DNA of 26,773 nucleotides from a virus, in the IMG/VR virus record IMGVR_UViG_3300030012_002057, positions 1 to 26,773 of that record, one strand, 5' to 3'. Numbering within the stretch: the first letter of the stretch is position 1; each line of letters begins with the position of its first letter. Under the pieces are notes generated by a model. The model was not told the DNA's origin. It ran no database searches and was given only the letters and a program-made list of their open reading frames with translations. The position numbers and the translations under genes are program-made. Below are positions 1-26,773 of the stretch, piece by piece.

Positions 1-1300
1 CCCCCATCTCTTCGCCTTGTTCAATTAGCCACTCTGCGGCCTCTACTTTCGGGCCTTCGAAATCGCTTGATAACTGAATATCGGTTGAGAATATCGCTTC
101 CGCTTGCTCCAAACCAAAGCCCAACATCGAAACGAGAATCTGTATCCCTTGGGTGCGCGTAAGTTCTCCCGTTCCTACCTTCGTAATAACATCGACCGCT
201 GTACTTATTTGTACGCCTGTGTAAGACTGATCGACGTTCGCCTCTTCTACGGCTGTTCCAATCGGTGCAACTTGCGCCGAAATACCGGAGGCGTTTAGAA
301 GCGTTTTAATAGTGCTTATAAGAACGTCACGGTATCCGCTCACTACGTTATCCTCGAAAATATCTGCTGACGTTTCAAGCTCCGCACCGCCGCCCAACTT
401 GCCGGGAACAGATACCCCAAAGAGCATCGGGTTGGTAACACGGTGGCCGATCATAATTTTAGCGGTAACCTCTTCCGAAAGGAACTGGTATTGCTTATCC
501 GCGTCCGATAACTGGAACGGCTCGAAGTCGGGCTTTCTATCCGGATCATCGGAGTACGTTACGATAAACTTCCCCGCGTTGCCCGCTCCGCTCAACTGTC
601 GCTCGATGTCCATCCGGATACGGTTGCGCTCCTCTTGCGGTGGTATGCCGTTCTTGAAGTGAATAGAGAACGAGGGCGACATCCCGTTCTGCATATTGTT
701 AATGTGGTAAATAGAAATCTCTTTGTCGAGTTCGATGTAGTTAATCGAACCGATATAGTCGGGCTTTGGATAGTAGTACGAACCCGGAGAAAACGGCTTT
801 ACGTACATTATCTGCGTAGGGTGATCCATCTTCTCCTTTTCATTGAAGGGGCAAAGCTCGACGGGTTCCTCTCGCTTATCTGCCCAGTCCTTCGAGTAGA
901 AGTACGACTCAACCTTCTCATCTTCATTTACGAAGCCGCTACGGACGTTCTCGAAAGGAAGGTGAGATACGTTTGCGATCGTGGTACGGTCGAGGCTCCA
1001 ATTGATTTCGAGGGCGAAGCCGCCTTGAATCTTGAAGTCCAAACAAGCCTTGCGGAGTTCGTCGTTCAAGTTCCATTGGTCGAACGCCAAACGACCTTCT
1101 AAATCGGAAGCGTCGAAGCCTTCGCCGAATATCATCATCGCAATGGACGTAACCAAAGCGTTGTGAGTAGCGGAGGAATGGTAGAGGTCTACCAGGTATT
1201 GTGGGAATAGGTTGTCGTCGCCGTAATTAACGAACCCATTTTGGTTGGGCGTTTCGCGATAGGAACGCTCCTCGTATTTGCTGAGTTGTAGAATTTCCAT
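1..1300 (-). CDS. Portal protein, N-terminal part (continues across the window ends)
   Basis: The portal forms the dodecameric channel at the capsid vertex through which DNA is packaged and leaves. The frame starts at ATG 1300-1298 and stays open to base 1. It reads MEILQLSKYEERSYRETPNQ, then YGDDNLFPQYLVDLYHSSA and later TNPMLFGVSVPGKLGGGAEL, a pattern I recognise from portals of Bacteroidota phages. The start overlaps the stop of the upstream gene by one base (TAATG), which supports the start. The last complete residues are GEEMG. The first base of the next codon is position 1, and its other two bases are 26773 and 26772 if the molecule is circular, giving GAT (Asp). The rest of the protein is then the open frame at 26265-26773, for about 602 residues in total. 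The family call rests on recalled similarity and is strong; the circular join is inferred. Confidence 0.9.
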   Translation of the reverse strand, partial: MEILQLSKYEERSYRETPNQNGFVNYGDDNLFPQYLVDLYHSSATHNALVTSIAMMIFGEGFDASDLEGRLAFDQWNLNDELRKACLDFKIQGGFALEINWSLDRTTIANVSHLPFENVRSGFVNEDEKVESYFYSKDWADKREEPVELCPFNEKEKMDHPTQIMYVKPFSPGSYYYPKPDYIGSINYIELDKEISIYHINNMQNGMSPSFSIHFKNGIPPQEERNRIRMDIERQLSGAGNAGKFIVTYSDDPDRKPDFEPFQLSDADKQYQFLSEEVTAKIMIGHRVTNPMLFGVSVPGKLGGGAELETSADIFEDNVVSGYRDVLISTIKTLLNASGISAQVAPIGTAVEEANVDQSYTGVQISTAVDVITKVGTGELTRTQGIQILVSMLGFGLEQAEAIFSTDIQLSSDFEGPKVEAAEWLIEQGEEMG

Positions 1301-1704
1301 TACTCGTAATAAATAACGTTATCGGGAATGGTTATGCTCGGTATCGTGTATCCCGTTTCCCCGGTTACCGTAAGCGTCCCGCGCTCTATTAAACCAACCA
1401 CGCTAGCATCGGACGCGCTGAGGTTGGTGCTTGAGTTTTGCCCGTATACGTCATACGTATACTGTCCCGATTCTGTAAGAAGAACCCTCCCCGACGCTCC
1501 GAGCGGTTGGTTAGTAAGTACCGATAGCTTCGTATATCGAGCGTTGTCCGCGTCAACATTTCCCACCATTGCGTATGTATCGTTACTCGCCATACTCGTA
1601 AAGATAACGAGATAGTGAGTAAAGGTATCGAAGTCCTTCTTCGCTTCTTGAAGCGTGAGGTAAATGAACTGTTCGTCGGAACTATTTGGAGCGAGTGTAA
1701 TCAT
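1300..1704 (-). CDS. Small conserved phage protein of unknown function, between tail-tube candidate and portal
   Basis: The product is 134 residues, from ATG at 1704 to a stop that shares one base with the portal start. I do not recognise a named family. It begins MITLAPNSSDEQFIYLTLQE. The first third is mixed helix and strand (residues about 15-40), and the rest is rich in Ser, Thr and Gly with alternating hydrophobic residues, as in a beta-sandwich virion protein. There is no signal peptide or membrane segment. It lies downstream of a terminator (1711-1738) and is translationally coupled to the portal, so it is probably made in similar, modest amounts. A head or neck structural role is an inference from position only. 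Confidence 0.75.
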   Translation of the reverse strand: MITLAPNSSDEQFIYLTLQEAKKDFDTFTHYLVIFTSMASNDTYAMVGNVDADNARYTKLSVLTNQPLGASGRVLLTESGQYTYDVYGQNSSTNLSASDASVVGLIERGTLTVTGETGYTIPSITIPDNVIYYE

Positions 1705-1710
1705 ATCGAA

Positions 1711-1738
1711 AAAGAAAAGGGAGGACTAATGCCCTCCC
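1711..1738 (-). terminator. Intrinsic terminator after the probable tail-tube gene
   Basis: On the minus strand GGGAGG (1738-1733) pairs with CCTCCC (1724-1719) around an 8-base loop. It is followed by TTTTCTTTTT (1718-1709). It lies between the stop of the 171-residue gene (1774) and the start of the next gene (1704). It would reduce transcription from the abundant capsid and tail-tube genes into the low-copy portal. Confidence 0.75.
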
Positions 1739-1773
1739 CCGTCCTGTAACCTTTGAACCAAACAAAAATGAAA

Positions 1774-2289: not shown

Positions 2290-2305
2290 AGTTAAGAGGA
2301 ATTGT

Positions 2306-2330
2306 GGGGAGGGATTTAAAGCCCCTCCCC
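2306..2330 (-). terminator. GC-rich hairpin after the major capsid gene
   Basis: GGGGAGGG (2306-2313) and CCCTCCCC (2323-2330) form an 8-bp perfect stem between the capsid stop (2338) and the next start (2289). No T run follows on the minus strand, so it is not a canonical terminator. It may be a partial terminator, or an RNA stem that protects the capsid message from 3' decay. Confidence 0.5.
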
Positions 2331-2337
2331 GATTCAA

Positions 2338-3264
2338 TTATGCCGAACGGCGACCAACTGCGATAGAGTCGAGGTCTACCACCTGCGTACCACCGGAGAA
2401 CTGCATAATCACGCGGGTAACGTCATCACCAGTTACACCTGTCAAATCCAAAACAGAGGCTTGAATATGATCAGTCAAGAGGTTCGTGCCGAAGTACAAG
2501 TTCTCGCCCTTAGCGAACAAGAAAGTATCGTCAGGCATACCGCCGGGAGTGATGATTTCGTAACCGTTGTACTGGTTAGCGGCTCCCTCAGCGTGGAAAG
2601 GCAAGTTGTACGTATCGGCCAGAGCGTTGTAGTACAACTGCTTCATCGCGCGGCTCATAAAGAGCTTCGTATCGGGGTCGCCCGCGATTACGTTAGGAAC
2701 AGCCAAATCGCCGATGCGAGTCAAGATGTTCCCGGCAGTAGTTGCACCTGAGAACGTATCCTCTTCGCCGGGAGTACCTGCTACAATCTTCGCGCAGATG
2801 CCGTCGAATGAAGTGTAAGTACCATCGGTTCCACCGTCGGTAGAATCGTAGTTGCCCTGCCAGATGTTTCGCTCGATGCCCTCAGCAACCTTCGCGGCTA
2901 CGTATTGAGCAACAAAAGAAGAGAAATCAGCGGGGGCCGCTGAAGATTGTCCGCGCATTTGTGCAGACTCCCAAGTTGCGCGGAGGTCAGCGTTGCAAAC
3001 CTGCTCGTTTACTTTCAAAGCAGAAGCTTCCAATACCGCCTCGCCCAAGGTCAATTGACCGGCAGAAGGGGTAGAGAAGGCGCAATCGTCGTTCGCTTGG
3101 ATTGCTGCCCCTGAGAACTTGCGGAGAACCGCTTTAGAGTGTACGTTCTCCAATACGGAGATGTAACCATTTGCGAGAGTGTCAGCAGACAAAATCGCGG
3201 CGGCTACGTAAGGACGTGCCGCTTCGCCGGCGTAAGTACCGACTCCAACTGTAGCGTTAGCCAT
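2338..3264 (-). CDS. Major capsid protein (HK97-fold type)
   Basis: The product is 308 residues, MANATVGVGTYAGEAARPYV onward, ending VVDLDSIAVGRRSA. It builds the icosahedral head shell. The features are those of HK97-type capsid proteins of Bacteroidota phages: an Ala-rich N-terminal arm, a long helix near QYVAAKVAEGIERNIWQG (about residues 124-141), a P-domain-like helix FMSRAMKQLYYNALADTY, then FLFAKGENLYFGTNLLTDH and a terminal strand. The TAATG overlap with the scaffold-like gene fixes the start. The protease-scaffold-capsid order is standard and supports the call. Hairpins downstream (2306-2330, 1711-1738) would keep its expression above that of the portal. I see no delta domain, because the acidic assembly protein is a separate gene. 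Confidence 0.9.
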   Translation of the reverse strand: MANATVGVGTYAGEAARPYVAAAILSADTLANGYISVLENVHSKAVLRKFSGAAIQANDDCAFSTPSAGQLTLGEAVLEASALKVNEQVCNADLRATWESAQMRGQSSAAPADFSSFVAQYVAAKVAEGIERNIWQGNYDSTDGGTDGTYTSFDGICAKIVAGTPGEEDTFSGATTAGNILTRIGDLAVPNVIAGDPDTKLFMSRAMKQLYYNALADTYNLPFHAEGAANQYNGYEIITPGGMPDDTFLFAKGENLYFGTNLLTDHIQASVLDLTGVTGDDVTRVIMQFSGGTQVVDLDSIAVGRRSA

Positions 3265-3899
3265 TATTTAGAAAATTGATTGTGGATCGCAGCGACGCGT
3301 TCCTGGATTGATAAACTTTTCAAATCGACGGGGGCAGGTGCCTCCATCTTTGGAGCGCGTGACAGGCTCGGTGTGGCCTGCTTACTCAACTCCGTAATCT
3401 TTGCGTCCCGCTCTTCGATTTGTGAAGAGAACTCCGCCTTCGTTGCTTCGATAGCTTCTGCGATCATACCTGCAACGTCTTCTCGTGTTAACACCTCTGC
3501 CGATGCTTCTACCTCTTCCACCTCTTTAGGCTCTTCGGCCTTTGGCTCTTCGGACATCTTCTCCTCTTCGTCTTTGTCCTTATCGCCGTAGGCCATATCC
3601 TCTTCTTTCTCCTTTTCTTCGGCTTCGGTTTTGGCTTCCATCTCGGAAACCTTGCCGTCTTCTACCTTCAAAGACGTGCCGTCTTCAAGGGTGTAATCTC
3701 CATTCGGGAGTGGAATCTTTTCGTTCTCGTCATTCATAACGAAAACCTCAACGCCGACAGCAAACGAGTCCGCGTCGGTCATAATTTCTTGGCCGCTTTC
3801 TAGCTTTGCGGTTGCCATTTGGACTTCTTCTTTTTCCTCCACTTCTAATTCAACGGAGTACTTTTCGAACAAGTCGGAGATGCGTTCTTTCAATGTCAT
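3264..3899 (-). CDS. Acidic capsid scaffold-like protein
   Basis: The product is 211 residues, starting MTLKERISDLFEKYSVELEV. Residues about 85-135 are an almost uninterrupted Glu/Lys/Asp stretch, and residues about 138-172 (LTREDVAGMIAEAIEATKAE and following) should form a coiled coil. The C-terminus, SLSIQERVAAIHNQFSK, is a short amphipathic helix like those that touch capsid subunits. A charged, helical, low-complexity protein between the prohead protease and major capsid genes is the classical position of the internal scaffold that the protease later degrades. A small beta-rich segment (residues about 30-85, with PLPNGDYTLEDGTSLKVEDG) is less usual for a scaffold. Function is inferred from composition and context. 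Confidence 0.8.
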   Translation of the reverse strand: MTLKERISDLFEKYSVELEVEEKEEVQMATAKLESGQEIMTDADSFAVGVEVFVMNDENEKIPLPNGDYTLEDGTSLKVEDGKVSEMEAKTEAEEKEKEEDMAYGDKDKDEEEKMSEEPKAEEPKEVEEVEASAEVLTREDVAGMIAEAIEATKAEFSSQIEERDAKITELSKQATPSLSRAPKMEAPAPVDLKSLSIQERVAAIHNQFSK

Positions 3900-3935
3900 C
3901 TTCGAAGAGTTTTTTTATATAACGGTTTATTGGAA

Positions 3936-5450
3936 TTATTCCTTATTTCTCTTGGGGTGTTCCTTTGGTAATAGGTCGTTGTCCCCGGTGTACTTCTTGT
4001 TCTGTGGCCGCCCGTTCTTTACCAGGTAGAGGAAAGCGTTCACGCGGGCAAAGGCCCAAGCCGACGCGCTCTTAATCTTTGGAGAGTGGCTTACGTTGAA
4101 CGCTCCCAAGCCGCGTTGGAATACCGCCTTTAACATTCCTACGTTCACGCCGTATCCGAGCTTCTCTTTATAGCGTTCGTTAAATTCGTCGCTCTTCTTC
4201 TTCAAGGTGGCTTCGTCTTTCTTGCTCACCTTTGCGGATCGCGTATCGGATGCATCACCTTTTGCCGTCCCTTTGCCTTTCGGGTTTCTGTTCGGCGTGT
4301 CGCTCTTGGGGGCTTTGCGGCTTCTACGAACCCCTCCTCGTGGGCCAATCTCTGCGAGTTGGTGAGTGGCTCCGGGCATATACCACGTCTTCCCGTCAAG
4401 CTCGTGGGTGTGGATACCTTCGAGGCCCATATCTTCCGCCGCCTTACGTGCTGCTTCTTCTGTCGAGTAGGCCAATCGGTCGTTAATAATGGCGTGTTCT
4501 TCGCTTATTACCTGGCTAACCATATACTCCAAAAGCAACTCTTCGAGGTGTTCCAGTCCGAGTTCTATCTCAATAGCGGATAGCAGTTCGAGTTCTGATA
4601 GTTTCGACTTTGCCCAACGTAACCCGGCCTTACCTCCCCATAACAGATAAGATATAGTTCCGCACGCGCTCGTGTCGCTTGGGTCGTAGTACTCCTCCGC
4701 CCGTGAGAGGTACGAGTACATTCGCTTAATCGTCTCCTCCGATACAGGTTCCCCGGCTGCTAACTGCGCACTCCGTACCCTACCGGTTTGGGTCGCGCAT
4801 TTGTTACCGTGCTTCTCGTTGAGTTCGCGTCCTCGCTTTGCGTTGTTCTTTACCGCGTCGGGGTAATCGCTATACGACTCCATATCGACGCGCTTTCCCT
4901 TCTTATATCGCTTGTCCTCCTTTACGGTGGCCTTCGCCATCTCGTACTTATTCGCAAAGTACCCCTCGATAGAGAAGCCCTTAACGCTGCCCTCCTTTAC
5001 GAACTTCTCCCAAATCGCATCGTTCTCCACCTTCATTGAAACCATCCACGTACCAACCGGGACTTCAAGCCCGTACATACGGGATTTGTCCTGCTCGCCC
5101 TCTACGATCCACGACTCTACGACGTGCAAGCCGTTAATCTTGTGCTCGTGTTCGAGGGTGGCGTTCGCTTGATTGCCGTTCTTCAAGTAAAGTTCCATCG
5201 CCCGGCGGACGGTCTTCTTTGAGAAGTAGACGTAATATTCTTCATCCCCGCTTTTTCGATAGATCGGCTTATCTGGAATCAGGGCGGCCCCCATTACGAT
5301 ACGCTTCTCTTCGTCCTGCGTTTTGAATTGCAAGAGTTGGGCGTTCATCGCTATGAAGTCCGATTCGATAGCGGGTTGTTCTACCAGGGAAATAGCGTCG
5401 ATTCCGTAGAGTTCCGCTTCTTCGTCGATTACGAGTTCTATAAAATTCAT
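3936..5450 (-). CDS. Multidomain prohead protease (XkdF-like serine protease with C-terminal DUF5824-like domain)
   Basis: The product is 504 residues. Residues about 40-180 look like the XkdF-type prohead serine protease: HEHKINGLHVVESWIVEG carries candidate catalytic His101/His103, and GSVKGFSIEGYF carries candidate Ser160. It would trim the scaffold and capsid during maturation. A second block (about 190-285) contains GNKCATQTGRVRSAQLAAGE, RMYSYLSRAEEYYDP and CGTISYLLWGGKAG. A third short block (about 330-365) has GIHTHELDGKTWYMPGATHQ with possible metal-binding His residues. After a basic linker, residues about 425-500 match the DUF5824 pattern (LKAVFQRGLGAFNVSHSPK, AWAFARVNAFLYLVKNGRP, DNDLLPKEHP). 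The start overlaps the tape-measure stop as ATGA. The protease call is strong; the roles of the other domains are unknown. They may be ballast cargo, as the protease is encapsidated. Confidence 0.85.
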   Translation of the reverse strand: MNFIELVIDEEAELYGIDAISLVEQPAIESDFIAMNAQLLQFKTQDEEKRIVMGAALIPDKPIYRKSGDEEYYVYFSKKTVRRAMELYLKNGNQANATLEHEHKINGLHVVESWIVEGEQDKSRMYGLEVPVGTWMVSMKVENDAIWEKFVKEGSVKGFSIEGYFANKYEMAKATVKEDKRYKKGKRVDMESYSDYPDAVKNNAKRGRELNEKHGNKCATQTGRVRSAQLAAGEPVSEETIKRMYSYLSRAEEYYDPSDTSACGTISYLLWGGKAGLRWAKSKLSELELLSAIEIELGLEHLEELLLEYMVSQVISEEHAIINDRLAYSTEEAARKAAEDMGLEGIHTHELDGKTWYMPGATHQLAEIGPRGGVRRSRKAPKSDTPNRNPKGKGTAKGDASDTRSAKVSKKDEATLKKKSDEFNERYKEKLGYGVNVGMLKAVFQRGLGAFNVSHSPKIKSASAWAFARVNAFLYLVKNGRPQNKKYTGDNDLLPKEHPKRNKE

Positions 5451-9499: not shown

Positions 9500-10759
9500 T
9501 TAGCATCGGATGATTTGTGCGAGTTCAACTTCGAACGAAGTAACGAAGACCTTCGAAACGGTTTCTTCTTCTACCTGCATCGAGTTTTGTACGATTGTCA
9601 AAGGAACCCAAGAACCGTCAATATCGGCCATTACGTTTTTACTCCTCATACAAAATTGAAGTAAGGTGAGTTCCTCAATGGTGAGAATACCGTTCAACTG
9701 GTAGCGTTCCTTCGCTTCGAGTTGATACGGCTTTATCTGTCGTTCGCTGCCTCCTATTTGAAACTGCGCACCGCTGTAGTCGCCTACAATCTTTCGATAC
9801 GTCTTCTCTTCCCTTGTGAGCGTCTTTTGCTTCTTGCCGTTAAAGCGGAGGTAATCCCATCCGCCGCGCGTATTCGTCCACGCCAATTGAACCGCTTCGT
9901 TCTTGTTGTGTCGGCAGTCGTTGGTAATGCGTAGCGTGTTGCCCGTTGGCCCGCTCGAAGTAGACGGAATTACATCATAATAACCCCACCCTCCCGTAAC
10001 GCCGTTTAACTCGCTTGTGAGGGCTGCAAACGAAGCCGGGTAAACGTATGCATACAACAAGCTCCCGTCGGTTGTAGAGTCGCTCCAGGAAGTGGTGGGA
10101 ACCAAGCCCCCGTTGGTGCTATTTACCACGTATTCGAGGGTCGCTTCCTGACTCCCTGCCGTGTCGTAAATCTTGAATGTCAGTTGCGTAATGAGTGACC
10201 CGGTATCGTCCGAGTTAATAAAGGCGGCAACTCCTTGGTCTTCAATGGCTGCCTTTACATTTATTACGTTGCTCACGGGTACGCGATCCGTTAGCCATAC
10301 CTTTTTTGAGGTAGCCGTTCCGTAGTAATCCGAGAACGACGGGAACAGCCCTTGTGAGAGTTGCTCGTATCCGTCGAAGAGGTAATAATATGCTGAAGTA
10401 TCCTCCGCAAGAGTTTCGCTGCTTCCGTCGAAGTGTCCGACCTTCAAACGGTATCGCTTGATATTTCCATTTGAGCGGGAATACATCTTGTTATTCAGCG
10501 AGTGAATCGTCCCCGTCTGCGCAAATTTAAAAGCGTCCACTTCCAAGCGTCCCAAGATGGCTTCCGATAAATCGAAGAAGGCGGTATCTGCAGGGTTAGG
10601 GGTAAGGTAAACCTTGGAAATATTTGTACCGTTCTCCTCTACCTGAACTATAAAGCGGTAGTCGTCCGTAACGGTGATGTCCGGTATAATAGTAAAAAGG
10701 AGCTTTTGCCCGGCGGGTATCCAGGAGCCTCCTGCGGGGCCGTTGTCGATTGATGCCAT
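9500..10759 (-). CDS. Tail structural protein, family unknown
   Basis: The product is 419 residues, MASIDNGPAGGSWIPAGQKL onward. It is rich in Gly, Ser, Thr and aromatic residues with beta-strand periodicity throughout, and has no signal peptide or membrane segment. The segment AWTNTRGGWDYLRFNGKKQK (about 292-311) is the most distinctive. The last 60 residues (ELTLLQFCMRSKNVMADIDG, then VEEETVSKVFVTSFEVELAQ) resemble a closing beta-domain seen in Bacteroidota phage tail proteins. Its start shares one base with the stop of the connector-like gene (TAATG). The neighbours are a connector-like gene and a large tail protein, so a distal-tail or adhesion-related role is plausible but unproven. Confidence 0.7.
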   Translation of the reverse strand: MASIDNGPAGGSWIPAGQKLLFTIIPDITVTDDYRFIVQVEENGTNISKVYLTPNPADTAFFDLSEAILGRLEVDAFKFAQTGTIHSLNNKMYSRSNGNIKRYRLKVGHFDGSSETLAEDTSAYYYLFDGYEQLSQGLFPSFSDYYGTATSKKVWLTDRVPVSNVINVKAAIEDQGVAAFINSDDTGSLITQLTFKIYDTAGSQEATLEYVVNSTNGGLVPTTSWSDSTTDGSLLYAYVYPASFAALTSELNGVTGGWGYYDVIPSTSSGPTGNTLRITNDCRHNKNEAVQLAWTNTRGGWDYLRFNGKKQKTLTREEKTYRKIVGDYSGAQFQIGGSERQIKPYQLEAKERYQLNGILTIEELTLLQFCMRSKNVMADIDGSWVPLTIVQNSMQVEEETVSKVFVTSFEVELAQIIRC

Positions 10760-11319
10760 TACTTAACTGTAATATTTCCGAGATTCAACTTGAACTTATC
10801 TTTGATATCCTCCGCTACTGCCTCGCCGATTTGCTTGTTAAATCGACCGGAGACAGCAACAAAGGCTTTCTCATAGAACCGCAGTCCAACGATTCCCTTA
10901 CGTTTGACGCTGCGAGCGATCAAGAAAGCGAGGGAGTTCATATTGCTTTGGCTCTGCTTCTTGAATCGTCCCTTCTCATCGCGTAAACGGATGCCCTTCG
11001 AACGGATCCACGGCAAGAACACTTTGGACGGGGGTTGCTTGCGGAATCGAAAGAAAGGACTCTTTTGGTTCTTCTGCGTCCCGTTTACTCCCCAATGGAT
11101 GAACGCGGCGTACTTGTTGGCTTTGCCCCTCGCCCCAAAGGTGACCTCCCGCACTTCGTTACCGCGTACCCGGACGCGATACGACAGCGACCGTTTGAGC
11201 GTTCCGGTAGCTACTCCGTAATTCTTGTTCCGACCGATTCGGCGTCCTCCGATCCGGCGTTTTGCTGACTTGAGAACCTCATCGGCAAATAGGATGATTG
11301 CCTTGTTCAGGTTCTTCAT
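10759..11319 (-). CDS. HK97 gp10-like head-tail joining / tail completion protein
   Basis: The product is 186 residues and strongly basic. The pattern fits the gp10-like family: an N-terminal helix (MKNLNKAIILFADEVLKSAK), GVATGTLKRSLSYRVRVRGN, then KANKYAAFIHWGVNGTQK, FRFRKQPPSKVFLPWIRSKG and a C-terminal ARSVKRKGIVGLRFYEKAF helix. Here 'gain of amide-type rigidity, then aromatic HWG' is the recognisable core. Such proteins occupy the neck between connector and tail tube. ATG at 11319 overlaps the upstream stop as ATGA, and its stop overlaps the next start as TAATG. The gene is far from the other head-tail connector (25701-26264), which is unusual. The family call is from recalled similarity. 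Confidence 0.65.
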   Translation of the reverse strand: MKNLNKAIILFADEVLKSAKRRIGGRRIGRNKNYGVATGTLKRSLSYRVRVRGNEVREVTFGARGKANKYAAFIHWGVNGTQKNQKSPFFRFRKQPPSKVFLPWIRSKGIRLRDEKGRFKKQSQSNMNSLAFLIARSVKRKGIVGLRFYEKAFVAVSGRFNKQIGEAVAEDIKDKFKLNLGNITVK

Positions 11320-15855: not shown

Positions 15856-15906
15856 CGTTTAAATAACTTGCTTTGTTCGGTTTCCTTACGTCCGGAAAGT
15901 TAGGGC

Positions 15907-15930
15907 AAAAAAAAAGCCCCCGAAGGGGCT
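15907..15930 (-). terminator. Strong intrinsic terminator with UUCG loop
   Basis: On the minus strand AGCCCC (15930-15925), loop TTCG and GGGGCT (15920-15915) are followed by a run of T. The stem is closed by C-G pairs around a UUCG-type tetraloop. It lies after the 59-residue small gene and before the chaperone ATG at 15855, ending the second promoter-small ORF-terminator cassette. Confidence 0.9.
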
Positions 15931-15950
15931 GCTGTTCGTTCATAAGTATT

Positions 15951-16244: not shown

Positions 16245-17402
16245 CTATCCGATAGCGTAAGCCCCGAAGTTCGGGTTCGTTTGGTTGAAAGTGATCGCGT
16301 AGCGCATCGCGTCGATAGCGTGGTTAAATTGGTCTACGGGTTCATTCAGTTGCTTGCCGTTCTTATCCTCCTTCCATTTGTAGTTGCGTAGCTCCTTGAT
16401 AAGGTTCACACTCCGAGACGTGATAAGTAGCGGGCGCGAATGGAGGAACTGGATTCCGCTTCTAACCGAATCTCTACCCTTTCTTGCTCCGTGAGTATTG
16501 AATCCGTGACCGTGTATCTCATCGATGCTCTTGGGCTCTGCGGAGTCACAGATAACAACATCCGATCTATCAACGTTATTATCTCGGAGCATTTGTGCGA
16601 TATTGCTATTAGTGAGGCGCGTTGCGTAGCAGAGTTCGTCGACCGCGAAGCCGTGGCCGTCGGTGTACACTCGGACGATCGCGGTTGGGTCGTTCGTATA
16701 TCCGAAGTCGAGTCCGATGTTGAGGAGTTTAAATTCATTTGGTATCTGGTCTATTTCTTTCCAATGGGTAAAGATGGTCGCACGGCTTGTTCCTCGTTCT
16801 CCGAGTCCGTACACCCTCCAGAAGTTTTCGTCTGCTTCTTTGAAGCGTTCAATTTCCAGGAGTACACTTTCGGGAAGGAACGGGTTATCCTTGTACGTCG
16901 TTTTAAAGAAGTCGCAGTCATCGCGTTTGGGTAAGTCGTAAAGCCAATGGAATTCGTCGGAGGGGTTAAAGTCTACAATTATTCTCCCCGTGGTTCGGAG
17001 GATAAGTTGCCGCCAATCTTCGAGGGTTATCTCGTTGGCTTCGTTGATAAAGAGAACGTCACGTTTACGGCCTCGCACCTTCTGCGGTTGATCCACCGAA
17101 ATGAACTCCACGAGGTTTCCCCATAACTGGTAAGTAGCTTCCGATTTGTTGTGGAGTTCGACGTTATAGGCGTCTTCGTTTTCGAGTATCTCGAAGAAGT
17201 CCCGCATCGCCGTAGCACGAAGGGCGGGGAAGGTCTTACGGCAAATGGTTACTACGAGGCCGGTATTCTTGTAACAGAGTTCTATAAGGCATTGCAAAAT
17301 TGAGAAGGTCTTGCCACTACGCGTGCCGCCTTGATTGCAAATTATCCGCTTCTTTGAGTTCCTTACGTGATAATATGTTGCCGGAAGTTTCACCGAGTAC
17401 AA
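16245..17402 (-). CDS. terL: Terminase large subunit
   Basis: The product is 385 residues from TTG at 17402 (MYSVKLPATYYHVRNSKKRI); GTG at 17393 is the alternative. The ATPase part shows Walker A GGTRSGKT (25-32), Walker B DVLFINEANE (115-124, Glu121 catalytic) and the coupling motif RIIVDFNPS (140-148). The nuclease part shows LNIGLDFGYTND with Asp232, DVVICDSAEP with Asp286, and FNHAIDAMRYAI near the end with its Asp. It cuts concatemers and drives DNA into the head together with the small subunit and portal. At 385 residues it is compact but has all motifs. No in-frame ATG lies before Walker A, and an intrinsic terminator ends only 6 bases upstream, so it may depend on read-through from the terS operon. 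Confidence 0.92.
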   Translation of the reverse strand: MYSVKLPATYYHVRNSKKRIICNQGGTRSGKTFSILQCLIELCYKNTGLVVTICRKTFPALRATAMRDFFEILENEDAYNVELHNKSEATYQLWGNLVEFISVDQPQKVRGRKRDVLFINEANEITLEDWRQLILRTTGRIIVDFNPSDEFHWLYDLPKRDDCDFFKTTYKDNPFLPESVLLEIERFKEADENFWRVYGLGERGTSRATIFTHWKEIDQIPNEFKLLNIGLDFGYTNDPTAIVRVYTDGHGFAVDELCYATRLTNSNIAQMLRDNNVDRSDVVICDSAEPKSIDEIHGHGFNTHGARKGRDSVRSGIQFLHSRPLLITSRSVNLIKELRNYKWKEDKNGKQLNEPVDQFNHAIDAMRYAITFNQTNPNFGAYAIG

Positions 17403-17407
17403 GGTAT

Positions 17408-17430
17408 AAAAAAAGCCCCTTTCGGGGCTT
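17408..17430 (-). terminator. Intrinsic terminator directly before terL
   Basis: The minus strand reads AAGCCCC GAAA GGGGCTT, then a T run (to 17408). The GNRA loop and GC stem make it strong. It follows the 46-residue gene's stop (17454) and comes 6 bases before the terL start codon, so its stem may overlap the terL ribosome footprint. Confidence 0.88.
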
Positions 17431-17453
17431 CTGTTGGTTTGGTATTCTTGGCT

Positions 17454-17656: not shown

Positions 17657-17678
17657 AAAAAAATCACTTTTCTGAAAA

Positions 17679-18026
17679 TTATTTTTCATTCAACCAAGAT
17701 AGCGGCTTCTTCTCTTGTACCTCTATCTCTTGCCGTTCGATATATCCGCGCTTCTTGCCTTTGGTCTTTAGAAAGAAGATAGTCGCGGCGGGGTTGCCTT
17801 CCTTTACGAGTTTGTAGAGGTGGCTTTCTGCGAAGTCAAGAACGCCGTCTTGAATCGATGCAACCGCGCTCTTATATTCTTCGTCCGACTTCAACCAAGC
17901 GTAATGCGTGGAGCGGTCGATACCTACCATTTTGGCCGCTGTCGATACGATACCGAGGGATTTCTCCAAGGCTTCCAACATAGCCTCTTTTTTGGTGTTG
18001 GATTTGTGGGTTTTTACCGCTTCCAT
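17679..18026 (-). CDS. terS: Probable terminase small subunit
   Basis: The product is 115 residues, MEAVKTHKSNTKKEAMLEAL onward. Residues about 22-58 form a helix-turn-helix of the type seen in terminase small subunits: LGIVSTAAKMVGIDRSTHYA, then WLKSDEEYKSAV. A second helical part (DFAESHLYKLVKEGNPAATI, FFLKTKGKKRGYIERQEIEV) is the common oligomerisation and tail region in this family. It recognises phage DNA for packaging. Its start shares one base with the ParB-like stop. It precedes terL but is separated from it by a small cassette and terminator. Confidence 0.82.
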   Translation of the reverse strand: MEAVKTHKSNTKKEAMLEALEKSLGIVSTAAKMVGIDRSTHYAWLKSDEEYKSAVASIQDGVLDFAESHLYKLVKEGNPAATIFFLKTKGKKRGYIERQEIEVQEKKPLSWLNEK

Positions 18027-18520: not shown

Positions 18521-18647
18521 TATGAACGGCTAAAGTTAGGAGGAGGGTTGCGGGATCCGGCCCCGTATGGAGTCGCACTACTTCGGCGTTCTCCGTAATT
18601 AAGAGGAAGTTCTTCGCGTGGAGGAGGGCTTTACGTGCGTTTCTCAT
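18426..18647 (-). CDS. Small overlapping protein between dcm and the ParB-like gene
   Basis: From ATG 18647 the product is 73 residues, MRNARKALLHAKNFLLITEN onward, with a helical body and an acidic tail (NSQPEEPEAD). It overlaps the dcm end by 17 bases and the ParB-like start by up to 95 bases. Without it there would be about 110 bases of empty sequence, unusual in this tightly packed region. Its amino acid make-up looks like a real protein, but the long overlap leaves doubt. No family is recognised. Confidence 0.5.
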   Translation of the reverse strand: MRNARKALLHAKNFLLITENAEVVRLHTGPDPATLLLTLAVHNVEFRQTLEAVIVQANEALGDNSQPEEPEAD

Positions 18648-19509
18648 ATTCTTGGATTGCTTCAAATATACGCAAAGCTACTTGAGGGACTATTGCGTTT
18701 CCGTATGCTTTGATGGATTCTCTTCGCCATTTTGGAAAGGTGATACCGTCCAGTTCTTTGGGAAGCCCATCATCTCCTCCACAAACAGGGGGGACAGTTG
18801 GGAACCGCTCCCACCCGCAAACCGAATCGCTAATTTGTTGGTTTTGTGTTGTTGGCTCGGGCTGTTCTCCTTCTGTTTTGCGTCTTGTGTTAATGGTGTC
18901 GGGAGAAAGTTGCCGTAAAGCATTTGACTCGTGAGGCTGTTGTACTTCGTCCCGTTCCTGTATCCTTTTGCCTCTGCTCTCGCTCGCATCTCCTCGGGGT
19001 GTTCGCTGCGTTCCGTTGTCGTTGGCGTGAGCAACAAACCACACTCGGTCGCGGCGGTGGGGAGCGTTGACGGCAGCAGCTGGAAGAATAAACGGTTGTA
19101 CGGAGTACCCGTGAGCTTCCAGGTCAGCGCACACCTCCTCGAAAACCAGTCCGCCGTTCCAATTAACAAGCCCGCGAACGTTCTCTCCCACGATCCAACG
19201 CGGTGAACACTCTCGAACAATTCTAAGCATCTCCGGCCACAGATGGCGTTCGTCTTCCTTTCCTTTTCGTTTTCCTGCGGTGCTGTATGGTTGGCAGGGG
19301 AATCCTCCTGTAAGTATATCAATTCGTTTAGCGTAAGTTGCCGCGTTAAATTCTTTGATGTCTCCATATTGTTTGGCGTTTGGAAAGTGGTGCTTTAGGA
19401 CTTTGCGCGGGAACTCTTCCCACTCGCAGTTGAACAGGTTTTCCCACCCCATCCATTCGGCGGCAAGGTCGAAGCCACCGATTCCGGAAAATAGGCTTCC
19501 GTGTTTCAC
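18631..19509 (-). CDS. dcm: DNA (cytosine-5) methyltransferase
   Basis: GTG at 19509 overlaps the upstream stop as GTGA and gives a normal start (MKHGSLFSGIGGFDLAAEW, 292 residues); ATG at 19557 adds 16 residues. Motif I is LFSGIGGFD (6-14), motif IV GGFPCQPYS with catalytic Cys72, motif VI ENV (109-111), motif VIII HRRDRV (151-156), and motif X AYGNAIVP near the C-terminus. It methylates cytosine C5 in a short target, most likely to protect phage DNA from host restriction; no partner endonuclease is seen. The region between motif VIII and the C-terminus, where target recognition lies, is hydrophilic and low in complexity (ANDNGTQRTPRGDASESRGK) and coincides with a long second open frame, so its amino acids may be doubly constrained. 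Confidence 0.92.
   Translation of the reverse strand: MKHGSLFSGIGGFDLAAEWMGWENLFNCEWEEFPRKVLKHHFPNAKQYGDIKEFNAATYAKRIDILTGGFPCQPYSTAGKRKGKEDERHLWPEMLRIVRECSPRWIVGENVRGLVNWNGGLVFEEVCADLEAHGYSVQPFILPAAAVNAPHRRDRVWFVAHANDNGTQRTPRGDASESRGKRIQERDEVQQPHESNALRQLSPDTINTRRKTEGEQPEPTTQNQQISDSVCGWERFPTVPPVCGGDDGLPKELDGITFPKWRRESIKAYGNAIVPQVALRIFEAIQEYEKRT
18690..19367 (-). CDS. Overlapping open frame inside dcm (candidate second gene)
   Basis: An uninterrupted frame of 225 residues runs one base downstream of the dcm frame, from ATG 19367. It includes CGRRCLELFESVHRVGSWER, RRCALTWKLTGTPYNRLFFQ, GLLLTPTTTERSEHPEEMRA, NFLPTPLTQDAKQ and QLSPLFVEEMMGFPKNWTVS. I recognise this pattern (TWK, FQL, LLPTPT and MGFPxxWT) from hypothetical or methyltransferase-associated proteins annotated in other phages. 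It could be a real overlapping gene, or an open frame conserved only because the dcm DNA is conserved. Sequence alone does not decide. If real, it could assist or modulate the methyltransferase. Confidence 0.4.
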   Translation of the reverse strand: METSKNLTRQLTLNELIYLQEDSPANHTAPQENEKERKTNAICGRRCLELFESVHRVGSWERTFAGLLIGTADWFSRRCALTWKLTGTPYNRLFFQLLPSTLPTAATECGLLLTPTTTERSEHPEEMRARAEAKGYRNGTKYNSLTSQMLYGNFLPTPLTQDAKQKENSPSQQHKTNKLAIRFAGGSGSQLSPLFVEEMMGFPKNWTVSPFQNGEENPSKHTETQ

Positions 19510-19730
19510 GGGTGTATGATTCTGCCCTCTACGTCTCTCGCTATGGTTTCGAGCCATTCGCGGTCGTAGTGGGTCATATTGTACTCTCTTCGATGCAGCA
19601 TCCGGAGTCCTGGGGTTTGTCCGATTGCGTCGAAGTATTGCTTCTCTTCAAACTTCTCTTTCTTCGGTAGCTTCATAAACTCCCGGATGTTGTGCGCTAT
19701 CTCCTCCCGTTCTTCTTTGGTATAGGTCAT
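19506..19730 (-). CDS. Small charged protein upstream of dcm
   Basis: From ATG 19730 (ATGA overlap with the upstream stop) the product is 74 residues, MTYTKEEREEIAHNIREFMK onward. It is highly charged and helical, with KLPKKEKFEEKQYFDAIGQT in the middle and MLHRREYNMTHYDREWLETI near the end. It shows no membrane segment and no metal site. Its stop overlaps the dcm GTG start. No family is recognised; translational coupling on both sides suggests it belongs to the dcm block. Confidence 0.65.
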   Translation of the reverse strand: MTYTKEEREEIAHNIREFMKLPKKEKFEEKQYFDAIGQTPGLRMLHRREYNMTHYDREWLETIARDVEGRIIHP

Positions 19731-20246: not shown

Positions 20247-20688
20247 TCTTCAGGGTTTTTCGGGTGAGGTGTAGTGAGCGATATAAGGTTGATTCTCCAA
20301 TGCCAGACCGTCGAGATATTTCAGCCATATTCCATCCGCTAAGATATAGTCCGAAAACTGTTCTATCGAACCACCCGAGACGGTCGAGAATGAGTTGGAG
20401 TTGTTCTCGTTGGAGGGCTTTGGTAAGGTCGGTTTCTGTGGCTTGTTCTTGGGGTTCATTATCGTTTGTTTTATAGAGTTCCTTAAATTTTCCGCGTGTG
20501 GCTTCAAAGTACATAGCCTTAACAAAGTACCCGAAGGGGTTTTCCATATATCGCTTATCTACGCAGCGGAGATAAACGTGGTGTACAAGGTCGGTCGGAT
20601 CGTCCGTCCATCGTTTCGCAACGTGAACGAGTTTCGAATAGTTCCGTGTTAGGAATTTATTCCAATCCTCTTTGTGCCTTGATTTCAT
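20215..20688 (-). CDS. Sigma-70-like (ECF-type) transcription factor
   Basis: The product is 157 residues, MKSRHKEDWNKFLTRNYSKL onward. The first half, with WTDDPTDLVHHVYLRCVDKR and ENPFGYFVKAMYFEATRGKF, resembles sigma region 2. The second half, with LDRLGWFDRTVFGLYLSGWN, then MAEISRRSGIGESTLYRSLH, matches region 4 (a helix-turn-helix that reads the -35 box). It could redirect host RNA polymerase to phage promoters, perhaps for the structural genes for which I see no consensus promoter. Region 2 is short and divergent, so a sigma-like DNA-binding protein without promoter-melting activity remains possible. It sits between ninG-like and the zinc-ribbon gene, in the middle block. Confidence 0.7.
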   Translation of the reverse strand: MKSRHKEDWNKFLTRNYSKLVHVAKRWTDDPTDLVHHVYLRCVDKRYMENPFGYFVKAMYFEATRGKFKELYKTNDNEPQEQATETDLTKALQREQLQLILDRLGWFDRTVFGLYLSGWNMAEISRRSGIGESTLYRSLHLTRKTLKNVLRNRTEED

Positions 20689-21055
20689 TTACTTTTCTCC
20701 TGTAGTAGCGGCACTTCTCCTCGAGTTCTTCTACCGTCCACTTCTTTGTTTTGTTGCTCTCGATGAGTATAGCTTCTGCCGTTCCTTCGCCGTATTGCGC
20801 ATCCAGGTTCTTTCCGAAAACGTACTGTTGGCCCCCGGTCATATTGCATTGCTTACATTGGAACTGGCAGTTTTCTTCCTTCCATCGAGTGGCGAGTTTC
20901 GCCCGGGTGATGAAGTGGCCGCAGTCTACCTCCTTCCAATGCCGTAAACGACCGCACGTGTAACAATTTCCCCAACCTTCTTCGTTAGATCCACGCAAGC
21001 GGATGAACTGCGAGAAGATGGAATCAAGTTTGCTTTTCGTCTTCGCTATTCCCAT
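20657..21055 (-). CDS. ninG: NinG/Rap-like recombination nuclease
   Basis: The product is 132 residues. CYTCGRLRHWKEVDCGHFIT, then KEENCQFQCKQCNMTGGQQY, provides Cys pairs and His in the pattern of lambda NinG (Rap), a structure-specific nuclease that cuts recombination branch points. The N-terminal LDSIFSQFIRLRGSNEEGWG and the C-terminal helix WTVEELEEKCRYYRRKVNEI complete the family's usual layout. It would resolve recombination intermediates during replication of concatemers. The length is close to the shorter NinG proteins. It overlaps the sigma-like gene by 32 bases and the upstream gene by a similar length, so the genes are coupled. Confidence 0.85.
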   Translation of the reverse strand: MGIAKTKSKLDSIFSQFIRLRGSNEEGWGNCYTCGRLRHWKEVDCGHFITRAKLATRWKEENCQFQCKQCNMTGGQQYVFGKNLDAQYGEGTAEAILIESNKTKKWTVEELEEKCRYYRRKVNEIKAQRGLE

Positions 21056-21545
21056 TCTTTCCCGGTATTAAAAAAGGGTTATTCTTCATTCTCCAAGCGA
21101 GCTTCGCAGCCTCTGCGTCATACTCGGGGACGTTCGTAGGGTTGTCCGTACCCCGTGTAATATGTTGATGCTGTCGTTCAAGGATCGGGGCGCGTTCTTC
21201 CTCGTGCTTGGTGATGCAATCGCGAAACTCCTGCATCTTCAGACGCTCGTAGAAATTGCCATAATATCCTGTTCTCATCCGCTGACAAATTAGTTTCAAT
21301 TCCTCCAATTTCAAAACGGGGAATACTTCGAAAATCATCTCCGCGCAAAGGGCTACGTCTTCAAAACTCTGAAGGGTCTTCTTCATCTCGAGCTTTATAA
21401 CCGTCTCCTGAATCATTGAGATAACAGCCGCCCTGGTCGCTTCGGGCATAACGCGGAGCGCGGTTTTGATGTTCGTTCCTTGCTGCCAACACTCCTCCGG
21501 CGTGTACTTAAATAATCCCGTTTCTGATATAGTTGTTAAGCTCAT
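21024..21545 (-). CDS. Helical protein of the replication block, family unknown
   Basis: From ATG 21545 the product is 173 residues (MSLTTISETGLFKYTPEECW). ATG at 21647 would add 34 residues but overlaps the initiator gene by 140 bases. It is helical, with SFEDVALCAEMIFEVFPVLK, then LEELKLICQRMRTGYYGNFY and ERLKMQEFRDCITKHEEERA, which I recognise as a recurrent protein in Bacteroidota phage replication regions, without a named function. It directly follows the winged-helix initiator. A helicase-loader or initiator-partner role is conceivable from context but no ATPase motif is visible. Confidence 0.75.
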   Translation of the reverse strand: MSLTTISETGLFKYTPEECWQQGTNIKTALRVMPEATRAAVISMIQETVIKLEMKKTLQSFEDVALCAEMIFEVFPVLKLEELKLICQRMRTGYYGNFYERLKMQEFRDCITKHEEERAPILERQHQHITRGTDNPTNVPEYDAEAAKLAWRMKNNPFLIPGKNGNSEDEKQT

Positions 21546-22185
21546 CTCTGCTTGGGCCTTTTGGAGTTGCCTTCTTTGGTCGAGGGAAGATTCCTTGCCA
21601 TTGGTTGGCGATAGCGATTTGTATTGCTTCGATTGCTTGTTGTTCATCTCCGTTTGTTTCGTTGTGTAGTTTATGGAGCGCAGCCAATTCACCGCGCCGG
21701 GTGTACTTCTTAATTTTTCGTTCTCTACGGTCTTCTTTCCATTCGCTCCAAATATCTGCGAATCGTTCGGAATCCCAAGGGAGGACGATCGCCTCTTCTT
21801 TAGATTGTTCTTTTACTTGTTCTTTAGTTGTATTAATAGAGGTACTATTCTTTCGGGCTGCCGGAAACTTTTTTACGGTCTGCCCGTAAGATTCTTTCCC
21901 CCTGCCCGTAAATATTTTACGGTCTGCCTGATAGGTTACCTTCCTTCTGCGTCCGTCGAACTCGATTTTAATAAACCCCATACCCTCCAATTTCTTGAGG
22001 GCTTTTGAGATCGTAGGCCGGGAAACCTTGTACTCTTCCTGTATGGTGTCGTTGGACTTGTAGAAGGCTTTCCCTTCGCCCGTGAACGAGTCGATTTCAG
22101 CCAGGAGGGCTTTCTCGGTGAGGCTAAGTTCCTTGTTTAGCCAAACTTCCTTCGGGATCCATACCCCTTTGAATTCTCTTTCCAT
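21508..22185 (-). CDS. Winged-helix replication initiator-like protein
   Basis: The product is 225 residues, MEREFKGVWIPKEVWLNKEL onward. Residues about 20-85 form a winged-helix domain (LTEKALLAEIDSFTGEGKAF, YKSNDTIQEEYKVSRPTISK, ALKKLEGMGFIKIEFDGRRR), as in phage replisome organisers. After a charged linker (about 90-135), residues about 140-205 (FADIWSEWKEDRRERKIKKY, IAIANQWQGIFPRPKK) look like the C-terminal part of these replication proteins. It should bind the phage origin and recruit host replication proteins; no phage DNA polymerase is present. The start lies 12 bases past a terminator T run, with a CATCTTTG box adjacent to the ATG. Confidence 0.82.
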   Translation of the reverse strand: MEREFKGVWIPKEVWLNKELSLTEKALLAEIDSFTGEGKAFYKSNDTIQEEYKVSRPTISKALKKLEGMGFIKIEFDGRRRKVTYQADRKIFTGRGKESYGQTVKKFPAARKNSTSINTTKEQVKEQSKEEAIVLPWDSERFADIWSEWKEDRRERKIKKYTRRGELAALHKLHNETNGDEQQAIEAIQIAIANQWQGIFPRPKKATPKGPSRDELNNYIRNGII

Positions 22186-22197
22186 TGCTCAAAGATG

Positions 22198-23086: not shown

Positions 23087-23103
23087 TTTGTTTGGTTTTG
23101 GGG

Positions 23104-23793: not shown

Positions 23794-23846
23794 CCATCAA
23801 ACGATAAACTGATACAACCAGAACAAACTGGAGTGCGAATATACCT

Positions 23847-24275: not shown

Positions 24276-25102
24276 TGTATCGCGTATTCTTTGCCTTGTG
24301 GCTTAATGGTAAACCGCCATCCACCGAGGCGAGGGGTAGAGAATCCCTTCTCAACCTCCCAACCAATAGAGCGGTCTTTCTTTTTGTACGATCCGGTCTG
24401 CACTACGTGAACCGTTTCTTGTGAGTGGTTGAAGTTGTTCGTAAGGACGTCGCGCATTACCGGGTGATACCATTTTTGGTGAGTGTGGCCCCGTGCAATG
24501 ATTCGCGCCTGCGGGTAGTCCTTCATATCTATATCGACATTTAGAACGCCTTTAGAACGCTTCGCGTTGCCTCCGTAACCGTGATGGTAATGCAGCGGAT
24601 ACGAACGGCGTGTACCCTGGCCTTTGCGGTCGCACTTGAGAATGACCCACCCCGCGTAATACCCTGCAACTACGTCGCCTCCTTTTGCGTTTAAGAGAGC
24701 CACGATGCGTTGGGTACAATCTACCCCGTGCCGCTTAGTTATGTTGGTCTCGTGGTTACCCATCGAGATAAGTTTAATAACGTCCTTGTACGGTTCGAGT
24801 TTATCGGCGCAGTCCTTCAAGACCTCATCGATATATGCCATCTTTTTAAGCTCTGGCCGCAACGAGTCGTAATTTCCGCGTGGATCTCTGGGCATCTGCA
24901 TCAAGTCCATTAGGTCGCCTAAAATGAAAACCGACGCTCCTTCTTCTTGTGCCATCTGTAGATGTTTGAAGAATAACCGCCGGTCGCATTTTACGGAGTC
25001 GAAGTGAACATCCGAAAGGAGATATATCGCTTTCTCATCTTTCGCGTTTTCGAAAGAGAGCGGGAGAATATGTATATCCCGGTCTTTTGTCAATAAACCC
25101 AT
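24257..25102 (-). CDS. Calcineurin-like metallophosphoesterase
   Basis: The product is 281 residues with the five phosphoesterase motifs: SDVHFD (Asp31, His33), LGDLMD (Asp63), GNHE (115-118), LHYHHGYGG (about 170-178) and GHTH (205-208). The di-metal site looks complete. It overlaps the endolysin gene by 13 bases and the holin gene by 19 bases, so it is expressed with the lysis genes. The substrate cannot be told: phosphodiesters in nucleotides, DNA or a cell-surface polymer are all possible. In phages such proteins have been linked to nucleotide signals and DNA metabolism, while its location here hints at a late role. Confidence 0.88.
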   Translation of the reverse strand: MGLLTKDRDIHILPLSFENAKDEKAIYLLSDVHFDSVKCDRRLFFKHLQMAQEEGASVFILGDLMDLMQMPRDPRGNYDSLRPELKKMAYIDEVLKDCADKLEPYKDVIKLISMGNHETNITKRHGVDCTQRIVALLNAKGGDVVAGYYAGWVILKCDRKGQGTRRSYPLHYHHGYGGNAKRSKGVLNVDIDMKDYPQARIIARGHTHQKWYHPVMRDVLTNNFNHSQETVHVVQTGSYKKKDRSIGWEVEKGFSTPRLGGWRFTIKPQGKEYAIQCHELH

Positions 25103-25458
25103 ATACGGTGTTGAGGTTTGTTTGTGTCGAGGTCTACGTGTATAAAGTTCGGCGCGATTCCTATTCTCGTGAACCCCACTTCCTGGAGCGCGTCGAGGAT
25201 GATAAATCGGCTCCGGCTGTCCGTGCAGAAGATATCCGCTGCTAAACCTAAAAGGTGAGAAGAGTTCCTCGAAGCGTTATAACCCTGCTTTATTAACGAT
25301 TGATTGTGAGCAACACTTCGAAAGCCCGAGGTTATAACAAACGGAATCCCGGCGCAATCTCGAGCCTCATCCAACATAGCGAGAAAGTCCAGATCCATCA
25401 TCTCCCCGCTGCCGGCTTGGTCGGGGGAATCGAACTCGTCGAAGGTAAAGTATCTCAT
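25090..25458 (-). CDS. Peptidase M15-family endolysin
   Basis: The product is 122 residues, MRYFTFDEFDSPDQAGSGEM onward. The zinc peptidase motifs are present: SGFRSVAHN (44-52), SSHLLGLAADI (66-76, with His68 and Asp75 as ligands) and FIHVDLD (105-111, His107). This type cleaves peptide cross-links of the cell wall and serves as endolysin in many Bacteroidota phages. There is no signal peptide, so a holin is needed for access; one lies two genes downstream. Its start overlaps the coiled-coil gene stop as ATGA. Confidence 0.9.
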   Translation of the reverse strand: MRYFTFDEFDSPDQAGSGEMMDLDFLAMLDEARDCAGIPFVITSGFRSVAHNQSLIKQGYNASRNSSHLLGLAADIFCTDSRSRFIILDALQEVGFTRIGIAPNFIHVDLDTNKPQHRIWVY

Positions 25459-25655
25459 TTCTCCGCGAGCATTAATTCGATTTTGTGGACGGCCTTAACT
25501 ACCTCCTTCATCATCTCTTTTAATTCGTCCTTGTCGGACTCTACGCGGATAATACGCCCCTTCAACTTCTCAATCTCGCGGTTTAGGTTTACCCATACCG
25601 CTACTATTGCGATTGCGCTTGGAAGGAGTAGGAACGTTATTTCTGTCGAGGTCAT
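25455..25655 (-). CDS. Small membrane-anchored coiled-coil protein (lysis-associated)
   Basis: The product is 66 residues: an N-terminal membrane segment (FLLLPSAIAIVAVWVNL, about 8-24), then a charged coiled coil (LKGRIIRVESDKDELKEMMK and following). This layout, one membrane span plus a periplasm-sized coil, is seen in inner-membrane spanins and in small holin-like proteins. It is coupled to the endolysin gene by ATGA, and a lysis role is likely by context. No matching outer-membrane lipoprotein partner is seen. Confidence 0.7.
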   Translation of the reverse strand: MTSTEITFLLLPSAIAIVAVWVNLNREIEKLKGRIIRVESDKDELKEMMKEVVKAVHKIELMLAEK

Positions 25656-25700
25656 CGAGAAACTTTTTCAGTAGGGTTATATTCTCTTTTCGGCTTTTTC

Positions 25701-26264
25701 TCATCCGAAGTATGCTTTCAAATCTACGGGCAGAGGGTAGGTAGTGCCTCCGCTTATCGTCATTCCGCTTTGGAAATAGTCCGCAGGCTGTGGCAACATA
25801 TCCGCTCCCGTGTTACTGTTGTACTCCGGGAACAACGAGAGGTTATTGCAGAGGTACTTGTAAAGGCGATACGAGTAGAACTGGGCGTTCTGTCGCGCTC
25901 TTTCTACCTCTCGGTGTAAATCGTCCGGGCTAATCGCTTGCGTGTCTTCTGAGACCCTTAAAACGAGCGAGCCGTTATCCATCTTCACGTACAGCGAAGG
26001 GATAAGCTCCACCATCGTCCACCAGAGCGTTGCTTTACGAACGTAGGAATCCATCAACGTAGCGTAATCGCCCGACAAAGAAGAACCGGAAATATCGCTC
26101 TTTAGCTTGTTCAGTAGATCCGTTCCCAAATAGAGTTGAATATACTTGTCTTGTGCGAGGATGATAGACGGAACGAGGTACGCGTCCTCAATGCTTCCGT
26201 TAATATTTGTAATCCGCTTAATGTAGTCCGGATTAACGAAAAGGACTTCTGCTGTTAGTGCCAT
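25701..26264 (-). CDS. Head-tail connector protein (DUF6712/gp6-like)
   Basis: The product is 187 residues, MALTAEVLFVNPDYIKRITN onward. SIEDAYLVPSIILAQDKYIQ, then LYLGTDLLNKLKSDISGSSL, and the helical LMDSYVRKATLWWTMVELIP and RARQNAQFYSYRLYKYLCNN match the connector/adaptor family often placed directly after the portal in Bacteroidota phages. It forms a ring below the portal that joins head to neck. The ATG is immediately next to the portal stop. The position agrees with the circular joining of the two portal pieces. Confidence 0.8.
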   Translation of the reverse strand: MALTAEVLFVNPDYIKRITNINGSIEDAYLVPSIILAQDKYIQLYLGTDLLNKLKSDISGSSLSGDYATLMDSYVRKATLWWTMVELIPSLYVKMDNGSLVLRVSEDTQAISPDDLHREVERARQNAQFYSYRLYKYLCNNLSLFPEYNSNTGADMLPQPADYFQSGMTISGGTTYPLPVDLKAYFG

Positions 26265-26773
26265 TTATCGTGGGTTTAAATAGCCGTTATTTGGCATATC
26301 GGTGGGGCGTGTTGCAACTCGGCGATCATTTTCCTCGAGACGCTTTGCGCCGACTCCGGCCTCTCGAATGACTTTCTTCGCTTGGTTTACGGAAATCTTC
26401 TTGTTGTTCTTGCGGAGGTATGTATGTCGCTTCCAAAAATGCCGGCAATTAGGCCCGCCTTTGTAGAGCCATATCGAGTAAGTATCGGTTCCATTCGGCC
26501 CGAAGCCTCTATTAACTGCACGGTCGCCCGCCGCGATTATATCCTCGTAACGGTAAACCCTGCGGGCTGACATCATTTTCTTGCAAAAATCCCGCTGCGG
26601 GTTTGGATCCCCGGCGTAAACGTATCGAACCTTAATAAGTTCGGTATCTTGTTCGCTTTCTCCTGCCGTGGGGCGGCTGCCTTCCGGAACGATGGCGCGA
26701 GCAAAAGCCCACAGCGCGTCCCGCTTTTCTTCGAGGTCGTAATCAACCGCAACCTCTTCGATGAGTTCCCAAT
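26265..26773 (-). CDS. Portal protein, C-terminal part (continues from the left window end)
   Basis: The frame is open from the right edge, so the visible ATG at 26576 is internal. It reads WELIEEVAVDYDLEEKRDAL, then SEQDTELIKVRYVYAGDPNP, FCKKMMSARRVYRYEDI, FGPNGTDTYSIWLYKGGPNC and RHFWKRHTYLRKNNKKISVN, ending PTDMPNNGYLNPR. I recognise this as the C-terminal extension of portals in Bacteroidota phages, with a conserved Cys/His pattern. Joined to the left-end portal (codon shared by base 1 and bases 26773-26772) the frame stays open. Its role beyond the channel is unknown; the extension may close the portal or bind DNA. Start and middle lie in the entry at 1-1300. Confidence 0.85.
   Translation of the reverse strand, partial: WELIEEVAVDYDLEEKRDALWAFARAIVPEGSRPTAGESEQDTELIKVRYVYAGDPNPQRDFCKKMMSARRVYRYEDIIAAGDRAVNRGFGPNGTDTYSIWLYKGGPNCRHFWKRHTYLRKNNKKISVNQAKKVIREAGVGAKRLEENDRRVATRPTDMPNNGYLNPR

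Follow-up and report, generated by a model that had tools for sequence, protein, structure and literature searches.

A 26.8-kb virus record that very probably is one nearly complete, circularly mapping unit of a small tailed phage, opened in its portal gene

Both record ends lie in one portal gene

The virus record IMGVR_UViG_3300030012_002057 was analyzed over its entire length of 26,773 nt, referred to here as the window. Both of its ends fall into a portal gene, which raises the question whether the record represents a whole genome that maps as a circle or a fragment of a larger one. The original prediction was a complete, circularly permuted phage genome cut inside the portal gene.

The minus-strand ORF 1300..2 encodes 433 aa ending in ...GEEMG and leaves base 1 over, while at the right end bases 26773-26772 complete a GAT codon, after which the frame continues as WELIEE... 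from 26771 to the stop at 26265. Recomputing the two ORFs (1300..2 and 26771..26265) confirmed the predicted frame arithmetic, as the joined portal frame comprises 1,299 + 1 + 2 + 507 = 1,809 nt with zero internal stops. An in-phase join is by itself weak evidence, because two coding ends are in phase by chance in about one of three cases. The portal join is more than that, since the pieces match the same PHROG family in order (positions 1-350 for the left and 398-558 for the right piece of the 560 positions of PHROG 33693), are contiguous in relatives and correspond to one CDS in phage P12024S.

The N-terminal piece is 96% identical to the full-length relative L002, which shows 96% identity to both pieces, and the C-terminal piece is 99% identical in L082 and L028. 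In all three, both pieces are found side by side in a single open frame. In total, at least 60 distinct related contig sequences carry them in one unbroken gene, and at the DNA level a 1,200-nt piece with the join in its middle matches without interruption 41 of the sequences compared, some of which are overlapping loci of one contig. The two ends of the window are neighbours in one portal gene; in the relatives they are adjacent, as in a circularly mapping genome, and the window shows a deficit of 3 nt at this point. For independent random ends on a 26.8-kb circle, the arithmetic chance of lying within 3 nt of each other is about 7/26,776 = 2.6e-4. A connector had been noted after the joined portal, and a DUF6712 candidate is found there, likewise in the relatives mapped (Table 1).

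The portals of the clade are either 534-549 or 600-609 aa long, depending on a cassette located just before the join (window 2-250, residues about 352-433); the long form is present in the window and the short form in its nearest closed relative, G001. Among solved portal structures, only weak matches to HK97-type portals were obtained (E about 0.16).

Table 1. Features of the window; positions refer to the 26,773-nt record.
Feature	Position	Strand	Evidence and remarks
Left record end	1..3	-	...GAAGAGATGGGGG; abuts 26773, about 3 nt missing (AAG in closest relatives); alignments with L002, L082 and L028
Portal, N-terminal part	1..1300	-	433 codons and first base (G) of the split codon; PHROG 33693 portal, E=8e-41
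Small conserved protein	1300..1704	-	Directly upstream of the portal; closed relative G001 opened inside
Virion structural protein, likely major capsid protein	2338..3264	-	PHROG 1623 'virion structural protein', E=1e-6; major capsid protein inferred from gene order
Head maturation protease (XkdF-like, Peptidase_S78_2), long C-terminal extension	3936..5450	-	Pfam, E=1.6e-15; PHROG 3017
Short tail tape-measure protein, 526 aa	5447..7027	-	PHROG 9483, 3336; closed relative G007 opened at this gene
Tail completion / neck protein candidate	10759..11319	-	PHROG 5, E=1e-4
Terminase large subunit (TerL), SPP1 gp2 / Sf6 gp2 type	16245..17402	-	PF17288, E=5e-20; PF04466, E=1e-17; closed relative G003 opened inside
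Terminase small subunit (TerS)	17679..18026	-	PHROG 309, E=1.5e-8; closed relatives G002 and G006 opened here
NinG-like Holliday-junction nuclease	20657..21055	-	PF05766, E=1.4e-13
Replication initiator (O-like)	21508..22185	-	PHROG 678, E=2e-17
Endolysin (peptidase M15)	25090..25458	-	PF08291, E=1.2e-10
DUF6712 (PF20459) head-tail connector candidate	25701..26264	-	Pfam, E=2e-16; directly downstream of the portal
Portal, C-terminal part	26265..26773	-	2 bases of the split codon, and stop; PHROG 33693, E=1.5e-48

Unit length and circular map

Gene order was compared with 17 longer relatives over their full lengths. The near-full-length ones have the window's genes in the same cyclic order, shared round the whole circle, but starting at other points. 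Seven relatives close on themselves, five of them with exact end overlaps (99 nt in G001, 73 nt in G003, 123 nt in G006, 99 nt in G007 and 127 nt in G008) and two with near-exact ones (139 nt at 98.6% in G002 and 254 nt at 99.6% in G004). Their unit lengths range from 25,101 to 28,209 nt with a mean of 26,398 nt, and the end overlaps are mostly k-mer sized. End repeats of k-mer length are what circular templates leave behind when they are opened at random positions (CheckV paper, PMC8116208). On the window map, the seven relatives are opened at about 1490 (the gene before the portal), 6977 (tape measure), 16523 (TerL), 17845 and 18016 (two different points in TerS), 21247 (an early gene) and in the 10.8-12.8 kb region (tail fibre).

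With 26,773 nt, the window agrees in length with the closed relatives, and the size that had been called small in the original prediction turned out to be normal for the clade. No terminal repeat was detected in the window by searching for exact overlaps of 8-399 nt or by BLAST of the end regions, and the CheckV rule relies on a terminal direct repeat with a minimum of 20 bp, which the window does not have. Every gene family that the seven closed relatives all share is also present in the window. Two more occur in five of the seven but not in the window; incompleteness was considered as an explanation and rejected, since G001 is without them too, which indicates a lineage difference.

Additional relatives touch on the same unit. 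G010, a more distant one, has a self-overlap of 98 nt, one base in from its end. G011 (40,311 nt, L149-L151) reaches its own starting sequence again after 26,678 nt (91% identity over 709 nt) and after about 26.7 kb continues with about 13 kb of another phage type, including a second tape measure, an endolysin, an initiator and a NinG-like gene. Because it runs on into genes of a different phage type, G011 is probably a chimeric contig; it still yields a like unit length. The ends of G005 (L137, L138) share an overlap of about 310 nt with an identity of only 86%, which suggests that two strains were combined in closing the circle or that the region is recombinant.

Thus, the record very probably represents one nearly complete unit, cut within the portal gene, of a small tailed phage with a circular map; 26,773 nt are present, and the full length is probably about 26,776 nt. 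An unmarked 26.8-kb record is thereby upgraded to a near-complete genome, and it follows that a record can be a whole genome though it fails the terminal-repeat test.

Missing bases at the junction

Between GEEMG and WELIEE, 57 of 60 distinct relatives have two residues and the remaining three have three, while a single residue occurs in none of them. The two-residue forms comprise ED, KD, DD, DE, EE and others, as opposed to D only in the joined window. The portal pieces are correspondingly separated by at least 6 nt in every relative examined and by 3 nt in the window join. L082 reads ATGGGGGAAGATTGGGAA, whereas the window ends read ATGGGGG and ATTGGGAA, so that AAG is absent in the window. 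When the whole viral collection was scanned for the join, allowing 0-12 free bases, only four contigs were returned, all of them already among the relatives compared and all with two residues at this position.

The exact 603 codons of the original prediction could therefore not be upheld: 604 are expected, and one residue is missing in comparison to all 60 distinct relative sequences. Portal residues missing at the join, which had been named beforehand as a sign against the prediction, were indeed seen in the alignment, at the scale of one codon only. What stands of the prediction is about one full unit, the circular map and the cut in the portal gene; the exact closure does not. An in-frame join may look perfect and yet be without one codon.

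A simple substitution bubble was considered for the 3-nt gap. Of the three missing positions, the first two differ among the relatives aligned, but the third (G) is constant in the L-relatives aligned, so that such a bubble does not fully explain the gap.

Packaging

By sequence, TerL matches the TerL structures of SPP1 and Sf6 (PDB 2wbn, E=2.6e-20, and 4idh, E=1e-10) and is related to headful terminases, as in pac phages of the SPP1/Sf6 type. SPP1 and Sf6 package DNA by the headful route. A circular map could also arise in cos-type phages, whose DNA circularises on infection. Because of the SPP1 gp2 / Sf6 gp2 type of TerL together with the circular map, headful packaging of concatemers is likely for the window phage, although the TerL type is not proof. 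The O-like initiator would start replication leading to long concatemers, from which the SPP1/Sf6-type terminase would fill the heads. Virions would thus carry circularly permuted DNA with terminal redundancy and no fixed end in the population, and the cut in the portal gene would be without biological meaning. When a tailed-phage genome assembles as a circle, its linear DNA in the virion is normally circularly permuted or has redundant termini; this was argued for P12002L/S (PMC4615864).

Alternative explanations of the record ends

If the window were a fragment of a larger linear phage genome, with a coincidental in-frame join, the absence of a terminal repeat would fit, and distant cultured relatives are indeed larger (P12024S, 35.7 kb). 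We give this almost no credence, as the two ends share a gene and meet to within one codon, many relatives run through the join and seven close at 25.1-28.2 kb. It is also very improbable that the window ends are physical genome ends, produced by cuts of the packaging machinery at or close to this stretch of the portal gene: the cut positions of the window and of G009 differ, seven relatives close elsewhere and many read through unbroken. In an independent contig sample taken by the downstream gene, upstream ends were found at 229, 371, 1054, 1118 and 1648 nt and beyond, compared to 510 nt in the window, and none coincided with its cut. What speaks for physical ends is G009, whose opening lies in the portal gene as well, at a distance of about 146 nt and again without an overlap. 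That both records end in the C-terminal region of the portal without overlap owing to a first cut of the packaging enzyme near there is accordingly highly doubtful; if it were true, the portal gene would contain a packaging site, recognisable by these contig ends.

The deficit itself can be read in another way, namely as a true one-codon deletion in the portal linker of this strain, in a genome that is complete and base-exact. In its favour, the deficit amounts to precisely one codon and keeps the frame, the linker varies in residue and length among the relatives (two residues in 57, three in 3), and G009, whose ends abut with neither overlap nor gap, demonstrates that contigs trimmed to exact abutment occur. 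Such a deletion is nevertheless unlikely, given that the one-residue form is found neither in the 60 distinct relatives nor among the join variants in the viral collection and that a further assumption would be required for the only such case to fall at the contig ends. A loss of about 3 nt when the contig was made is favoured, as the one-residue form is absent from all relatives. In this view, the assembler broke the circle within the portal gene at no preferred position, and about one codon was dropped there (AAG in register; in terms of the protein, GAA or a similar codon). The overlap by which closed contigs are usually recognised is absent from the record.

Further genes and features of the window

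Nearly all genes are located on the minus strand. Besides the features listed in Table 1, holin-like proteins and a sigma-factor-like protein were found, and no tRNA genes could be identified in the window. Tape measure and neck genes are present and no sheath was found; a siphovirus morphotype with a long non-contractile tail is predicted.

Iteron-like repeats of 22 nt (GGCAGACCGTAAA...) are located at 21842-21929 inside the O-like initiator gene. G002-G005 possess another N-terminal DNA-binding domain in the initiator and other repeats (GCAAC..GTTGC) at the same place, so the DNA-binding domain and the repeats seem to be exchanged together. A cytosine-5 DNA methylase is encoded at 18631-19557, and only some relatives have one (G011 and G017, with a weak match in G008); the site is an exchangeable cargo slot. 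The window is variable between 10.8 and 15.2 kb. For a tail-region protein with RCC1-like repeats (11570-12874), none of the longer relatives compared gave a match. The TerL gene is flanked by two hairpins that resemble each other (15904-15940 and 17403-17439); both are GC-rich, have minus-strand T-runs and are terminator-like.

Relatives and comparison with known phages

The window phage is an ordinary member of an uncultured, mostly marine clade of small tailed phages. The record is hence placed in a well-populated clade (at least 597 related stretches) whose cultured relatives are only distant, such as the flavobacterial phage P12024S (Inhavirus). No near-identical isolate phage was found in the phage collection, where a megablast search gave no match; with a portal identity of 29%, close nucleotide similarity to the type phage of Inhavirus is not found. 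Searching bacterial genomes with TerL for prophage hosts resulted in only three distant matches (Bacteroides salyersiae with 45%, a bacterial MAG and a Bacteroidetes MAG). Because these matches are few and distant, a host among the Bacteroidota is only suggested.

Two relatives illustrate the likeness within the clade. G001 (IMGVR_UViG_3300030116_002395, 25,841 nt) has the same cyclic gene order as the window, with 99% identity in the C-terminal part of the portal and 87-100% in most other proteins. Its exact 99-nt end overlap gives a closed unit of 25,742 nt, and its opening lies in the gene upstream of the portal. Unlike the window, it has a short portal (544 aa) and is without the cytosine methylase and part of the tail region. 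G009 (IMGVR_UViG_3300046167_000298, 26,484 nt) is like the window opened in the C-terminal half of the portal without end overlap, but its ends abut with no missing base and its proteins are mostly about 60-88% identical. Several one-base frameshifts in the portal gene near the contig ends of G009 (L145-L146) suggest sequencing errors in that record.

In Nonlabens (Persicivirga) phage P12024S, a single portal CDS (3405-5087) matches both window ends, with 29% identity over residues 1-341 and 51% over the C-terminal part, and an endolysin, a holin and a metallophosphatase are annotated downstream. In contrast to the window, P12024S has a genome of 35.7 kb and its own replication module with primase/helicase, and the identity is low. 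Bacillus phage SPP1 and Shigella phage Sf6 share the nuclease and ATPase domains of TerL with the window phage; host and size differ, and the comparison refers to TerL only. Phage lambda carries iteron-like repeats within its initiator gene O, and the same arrangement is found in the O-like gene of the window.
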